In this document: one piece after another, positions 28,334-28,468 of the stretch
How positions within the stretch are numbered: position 1 is the first letter of the stretch
Layout: each line of letters begins with the position of its first letter
NCBI GenBank assembly: GCA_037176725.1
Contig: JAZBRS010000011.1
Span: 2,728,001 to 2,792,000 of the forward strand
Direction: 5' to 3'
From: Posidonia oceanica
Taxonomy: Eukaryota; Streptophyta; Magnoliopsida; Alismatales; Posidoniaceae
DNA: 64,000 nt
Notes under the pieces: generated by a model
What the model was told of the DNA's origin: nothing
Seen by the model: only the letters and a program-made list of their open reading frames with translations
The model's database searches: none
Translations under genes and position numbers: made by a program

Positions 28334-28468
28334 GATGCTGGCCGGATCTGGCAACTTCCCAGTCTTCTCGTACTCCTCCTCGGTCTTCACTCCCTCATGG
28401 ATCAAGAGCGCGGCATCACCACCGTCATCCACGATCAAGTCTAGGCCTCCAACCTCTCCCCAGTCCAT
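28334..28468 (-). pseudogene. Captured S-adenosylhomocysteine hydrolase (SAHH) exon fragment
   Basis: The minus strand reads [20 protein letters not shown], then [17 protein letters not shown] and KLPDPASID. This matches the highly conserved plant AdoHcy hydrolase segment ([42 protein letters not shown]). SAHH removes S-adenosylhomocysteine and so sustains cellular methylation. About 45 residues are present, open in frame but without the catalytic remainder, and they are antisense to the retroelement. Frames on either side are low-complexity and unrelated to SAHH. I infer transduction or template switching of a host transcript. Confidence 0.88.

Follow-up and report, generated by a model that had tools for sequence, protein, structure and literature searches.

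A family of small LTR elements in the genome of Posidonia oceanica carries a piece of the host gene for AdoHcy hydrolase (SAHH) in antisense orientation, and this antisense cargo is a family trait that was multiplied in many copies, not an accident of a single copy. The family is very probably TRIM-like and non-autonomous, lacking gag-pol, with spliced SAHH mRNA having been copied in antisense during reverse transcription into a slot that tolerates foreign DNA, where it would be carried as a passenger. One copy lies in the window analyzed here, a stretch of 64,000 nucleotides (contig JAZBRS010000011.1, positions 2,728,001 to 2,792,000), for which a sequence-only reading had described about 45 residues of SAHH, placed antisense in a small element with its own LTRs, primer site, purine tract, and TSD. 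Each part of this description agrees with the features found (Table 1).

The window element and its SAHH fragment

The element, whose ends were set by hand, fits an LTR retrotransposon, with direct LTRs starting with TG, a 5-bp TSD, a primer-binding site (PBS), and a polypurine tract (PPT). By eye and across copies, the PBS follows the 5' LTR and the PPT precedes the 3' LTR, and the PBS sequence of the less worn copies (Table 1) is one that we take to be of the initiator-Met tRNA type. The LTRs end with CAACA in many copies and with CAATA in the 3' LTR of the window copy, in which the two LTRs have diverged by a K2P distance of 0.044. None of the 19 open stretches of at least 60 aa in the interior of the window copy (28,027-29,673) contained a retroelement domain according to Pfam, and one of them matched AdoHcyase below the Pfam cut-off. 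Pfam matches to other host gene pieces in the window slot were weak and below cut-off, with nothing convincing except SAHH. The tandem array of 104-112-bp units is present in many copies of the family.

Table 1. Coordinates of the two small elements, their cargo, and the surrounding copia element in the window.
Feature	Position	Strand	Remarks
Surrounding Ty1-copia element	24730..32173 (right end about)	+	decayed; Pfam copia gag slightly below cut-off, RVT_2 above
TSD left, AAATA	27877..27881	.	5 bp
Small LTR element (window copy)	27882..29814	+	1.93 kb; without gag-pol
5' LTR	27882..28026	+	145 bp; first bases TG; two TATA-like motifs (27,962 and 27,964)
Primer-binding site	28027..28039	+	TGGTATCAGAGCC in less worn copies, e.g. 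L009
Cargo slot	28153..28905	+	SAHH piece flanked by two stretches of unknown origin
SAHH fragment	28331..28471	minus	residues 124-170 of host protein; exon 2 only in window copy
Tandem units	29068..29443	+	104-112 bp each; internal region
Polypurine tract region	29660..29673	+	adjoins 3' LTR
3' LTR	29674..29814	+	141 bp
TSD right, AAATA	29815..29819	.	5 bp
E2, older member of the same small family	4365..5632	+	LTRs 4,365-4,503 and 5,482-5,632; TSD AGAGG both sides
NOP16 (nucleolar protein 16) fragment in E2 slot	4798..5062	+	sense; one stop, one frame shift

The SAHH fragment encodes 47 residues of plant AdoHcy hydrolase with 85% identity to one of the two host genes, L027 (E 2e-19). A 59-aa minus-strand translation that includes the fragment is similar to residues 127-174 of lupin SAHH (3OND, E 2.4e-16), and its match to Pfam AdoHcyase (E 1.8e-5, 24.5 bits) lies slightly below the cut-off of 25. 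When the whole window was compared with the L027 protein, one strong place only was found, with 83.6 bits and a runner-up of 21.9 bits. The fragment is situated between both LTRs and runs antisense relative to the polarity given by LTR, PBS, and PPT. The idea that the SAHH similarity arose by chance, or that it belongs to an unrelated neighboring repeat, can be dismissed in view of the E-value of 2e-19, a best score of 28.1 bits in 50 dinucleotide shuffles of the window compared to 83.6 bits in the window itself, and the location of the piece, which has an LTR on either side in 21 of the 26 copies described below; in the other five, the stretch read showed only one LTR or none.

A genome-wide DNA search with positions 28,300-28,480 as query gave at least 31 matches, a lower bound as only the best candidates were scored. 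They comprise 27 matches at 26 element loci (the window included), two intact SAHH genes, and the loci L036 and L037, which are members of another retroelement family. Further copies in the source genome, for which the sequence-only reading proposed a search, are thus present. The SAHH piece is antisense in all 26 loci, relative to the LTRs in 24 and relative to the leader in L020 and L032, where an LTR was not found in the stretch read. Both LTRs are present in 21 loci, and these elements are 1,291-1,933 bp long. Identical 5-bp TSDs at the exact predicted ends occur in 11 of these two-LTR copies, while three have TSDs shifted by 1-3 nt and seven have imperfect ones. LTR divergence across copies ranges from 0.014 to 0.139, except for L024 (0.29) and L031 (0.36).

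Source and capture of the SAHH piece

The host genome encodes SAHH in two intact genes, L027 on C12 and L033 on C46, each with four exons and 485 codons. Among the 120 matches listed of 7999, the L027 protein was closest to sequences of land plants, with identities of up to 92%. Host exon 1 ends with GGCGAGACCCTCCAG and exon 2 starts with GAGTACTGG, and intron 1 has a length of 122 nt in L027 and 98 nt in L033. In seven of the 26 element copies (L017, L023, L024, L026, L029, L030, and L031), the alignment passes from exon 1 to exon 2 without the intron, and thus the source was a spliced SAHH mRNA and the capture was mRNA-mediated. A 40-nt probe for the spliced junction matched L017 at 40/40, L029 at 38/40, and L030 at 36/40 positions. 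In L023, L024, L026, and L031, small deletions touch the junction, and neither the spliced nor the unspliced probe scored above 26. In L023, the unspliced probe is slightly ahead (26 vs. 24), as both probes have their exon 2 half in common, yet the alignment of this copy reads exon 1 and then exon 2. The remaining 19 copies, including the window copy, are uninformative regarding the intron, as they start within exon 2 or, in the case of L032, are interrupted close to the junction.

The longest form of the cargo, 562 nt of cDNA that starts 51 nt before the ATG and includes the first 166 nt of exon 2, is found in L024, L026, and L031. These three have common flanks and are therefore one insertion that was duplicated, which leaves five independent insertions with the intron-free form. 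This duplicated insertion, which preserves the longest SAHH cDNA piece, is part of a larger duplicated or mobile unit. A TATAAA motif is found about 50 nt upstream of the long-form start, suggesting that the capture starts near, and not certainly at, the transcription start.

In a tree of the 140-nt core from 21 element copies (the five truncated ones excluded), the elements group in a single clade with a support of 92, adjacent to L027 (branch 0.015), with L033 distant (0.138). On the basis of this tree, the donor is shown to be the SAHH gene on C12 and not its paralog on C46, and the alignment to host SAHH proposed in the sequence-only reading has thus made a donor identifiable. Most inner nodes have low support. 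One clade (support 89) unites the short forms with two long ones, L017 and L023, and the other five of the seven long forms fall outside it; therefore, the short form in the window looks derived, with the window fragment appearing to be the shortened remnant of a 562-nt capture. All copies that extend to the 3' breakpoint have it in the same region, after ATCGAC or a worn variant of this motif, which fits one capture.

Since the family has a PBS, a PPT, and TSDs and no genes, known biology suggests that it was copied in trans, presumably by a Ty1-copia relative whose LTRs, PBS, and PPT are similar. A particle would have held element RNA together with host mRNA, and the polymerase may have copied the spliced SAHH mRNA into the element. 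A template switch between two packaged mRNAs in minus-strand synthesis would give sense cargo; the antisense cargo would fit a jump onto the SAHH mRNA in plus-strand synthesis, or the insertion of a backward cDNA. On one possible path, plus-strand synthesis would have jumped onto the SAHH mRNA in exon 2, copied it to near the 5' end, and jumped back. The resulting chimera would then have multiplied, and later copies, represented by the short form in the window, would have lost most of the SAHH part.

Alternatively, a processed SAHH pseudogene (a LINE retrocopy) could have entered one element copy as DNA, in reverse orientation, and then been carried along. This would explain the antisense orientation and the intron loss equally well; however, the piece lacks the 3' part of the SAHH gene, which LINE retrocopies usually keep, and we regard this origin as rather improbable. 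Copying during reverse transcription, the origin we prefer, also has points against it. Captured genes in retrotransposons usually have the sense of the element (PMC7264820), and thus a spliced copy in antisense calls for a rarer route or the earlier insertion of a reverse-oriented cDNA.

Furthermore, no intact helper was identified around the window copy. The surrounding Ty1-copia element has LTRs that are 80-83% similar to the LTR of the small element, but it is decayed, and no significant internal DNA in common with the small element was found (best E 0.30). It is therefore only a candidate relative of the small family. That the small element is nested in its own helper was set aside, as the LTRs are related but the two have no significant internal DNA in common. 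The LTRs of the surrounding copia element have a K2P divergence of 0.114, and its flanks form a near-TSD (left GAATG, right AAATG). Within it, the small element sits in a further stretch (~27,365-30,160) that by eye is not copia-like.

A second host gene in the same slot and a second uptake of SAHH

The window contains another member of the small family, E2 (Table 1), with an LTR-LTR divergence of K2P 0.22; the LTR of the window element recurs in it at 4,365-4,501 and 5,482-5,617. The LTR with the leader, a middle stretch, and the tail are common to E2 and the SAHH element, and the regions between them differ. The cargo slot of the SAHH element has no similarity to E2 except for a 24-bp purine-rich match at about 28,810-28,833, and SAHH was not found in the E2 slot, where the best match to the SAHH cDNA was 22 bp (E 0.17). 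Searches of the E2 cargo against PDB, Pfam, and proteins at first gave no match. A GC-rich coding stretch in the slot is similar to nucleolar protein 16 (NOP16) of Zostera marina (E 7.8e-7; of 15 candidates, one matched), and tblastn with NOP16 over the window gave an E-value of 1.7e-20 at the fragment listed in Table 1. Within one window, this slot is thus occupied by different host genes in two members of one family, antisense in the SAHH element and sense in E2, and it accepts other cargo. In a DNA search with positions 4,640-5,080, ten of the 37 matches (E2 included) extend into the NOP16 part, and the other 27 lie only within the first ~101 bases or, in one case, the last 30.

SAHH sequences are also found in a second retroelement family. 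The Pfam SAHH model gave 28 matches in the genome, of which seven fall in the two genes, nine in eight small-family copies, and 12 in seven additional loci (L036, L037, L050, L052, L054, L057, and C19:166,122,612). In the five of these additional loci that were read from the left edge, the unit begins with TGTTGG after differing flanks, followed in order by the SAHH 5' UTR with part of exon 1, a deletion, the remainder of exon 2, and a portion of intron 2. This SAHH piece is closest to L033 and lies in sense orientation, and it is carried by L036, L037, L050, L052, L054, and in part by L057. In L036 and L037, the deletion preserves the reading frame. In L037 (3183-7054), the same strand continues to a Copia-type integrase (below cut-off) and a reverse transcriptase (E 1.2e-52). 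Judging from its left edge and the pol domains, the second family presumably also consists of LTR elements. SAHH has entered two retroelement families, once as a spliced antisense piece from L027 and once as an intron-retaining sense piece from L033, a double uptake that gives no unbiased count because SAHH alone was searched for.

Possible effects on SAHH and comparison with known elements

Differences among 21 element copies (five truncated ones excluded) amount to 0.128, 0.114, and 0.116 at the three codon positions; between L027 and L033, there are 4, 0, and 12 differences. The flat rates in the elements indicate no protein-level constraint on the SAHH piece, and coding constraint was rejected as an explanation for it. 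The mean pairwise difference is 0.098 in the SAHH part, 0.109 in the LTRs, and 0.125-0.150 in other internal parts, gaps amount to 0.005 in the SAHH part vs. 0.020-0.099 elsewhere, and outside CpG contexts the SAHH part differs by 0.066 vs. 0.066-0.070 for the LTRs, values obtained from 11 of the 26 copies (9-11 per part), all gathered by their SAHH similarity, so that the lower SAHH divergence is not readable as selection, either way. But for this way of collecting copies, the lower divergence and the fewer gaps would fit constraint and speak against a mere passenger.

Exact 21-mers in common with the L027 mRNA are present in 18 of the 26 copies, and with the L033 mRNA in 19. The longest exact stretch measures 76 nt, in L017; in the window copy, it reaches 30 nt with the L027 mRNA. 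These common 21-mers make pairing of element RNA with SAHH mRNA, or small-RNA action, possible. SAHH is an enzyme required for DNA methylation. An anti-silencing cargo might be envisaged, in which LTR-driven antisense SAHH transcripts pair with SAHH mRNA, 21-24-nt small RNAs or a translation block lower SAHH and raise SAH, and DNA and H3K9 methylation on the elements is loosened. According to PMC7300381, transposons are derepressed when SAHH is lost, and tobacco repeats lost DNA methylation under antisense SAHH RNA (Tanaka et al. 1997, cited therein). Besides these reports and the exact 21-mers, with stretches of up to 76 nt, such a role would agree with the antisense orientation in all 26 copies found, the additional capture of SAHH by an unrelated family, and the slightly lower divergence and fewer gaps of the SAHH part, as far as the biased sampling lets these count.

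However, the piece has only ~140 nt in its commonest form compared to 562 nt in the longest, and five copies are cut further. No conservation above that of the neighboring parts is seen free of sampling bias, the second SAHH capture is sense, and E2 multiplied too although it lacks SAHH, as ten of the 37 matches reach into its NOP16 part. We therefore consider an anti-silencing function very unlikely. It is equally hard to believe, on these sequence data, that the antisense SAHH would have been kept because elements that lower the host methylation cycle escape silencing better, with the uptake by the second family as convergence. If true, the family would be a natural version of the antisense-SAHH tobacco experiment, and the SAHH uptake by the second family would be convergence and not an accident. 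Most likely, the SAHH piece is a passenger without benefit to the element or the host.

The LTRs of about 145 bp fit the very short LTRs of TRIMs, and the total size is at or above that of the gene-bearing TRIMs in PMC4717578. Exon-only captures of host fragments are known from TRIMs such as soybean GmaRetroS15 (Gao et al. 2016, PMC4717578). Like the TRIMs of that study, the family described here consists of small LTR elements with 5-bp TSDs and exon-only host fragments that multiplied after capture. The occurrence of two members of one family with different genes in one slot distinguishes it from the TRIMs described there. In the family analyzed here, the SAHH part is antisense.

In maize, 425 intact LTR elements with gene fragments go back to at least 189 independent captures, and the SAHH family resembles these elements and in this respect belongs to a common kind (PMC2774510). 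In that survey, no element was found with fragments of more than one standard nuclear gene, and the role of LTR-captured fragments, e.g. in donor gene regulation, is stated as not known (PMC2774510). The family offers a clean test of donor regulation, as the donor is known, the fragment is antisense, and 18 of the 26 copies have exact 21-mers. A sister element with a different gene and a donor enzyme whose loss, according to PMC7300381, releases transposons sharpen such a test.

Maize Bs1 is likewise an LTR element with exon-only pieces of host genes; in contrast to the SAHH piece, which lacks codon constraint, its three host pieces form a chimeric gene that is transcribed and translated, as described in PMC13317346. 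Antisense cargo in plant LTR elements is also represented by the additional ORFs of Grande, RIRE2, and Retand, which are conserved, lie between pol and the 3' LTR, and have no known host counterpart according to PMC7264820. Unlike these ORFs, the SAHH piece is a non-coding remnant of a known host gene. In the open-licence PMC literature, no report of a SAHH-bearing retroelement was found among the matches listed. New in this analysis are the spliced mRNA source and the window fragment as what looks like the remnant of a 562-nt capture.

Finally, the elements can be compared to the TRIMs of PMC4717578 in numbers. Larger copia relatives with similar LTRs reach 79%-98% for those TRIMs and 80-83% here, in the surrounding copia element, and the SAHH elements measure 1,291-1,933 bp compared to 1,172-1,449 bp for the gene-bearing TRIMs.
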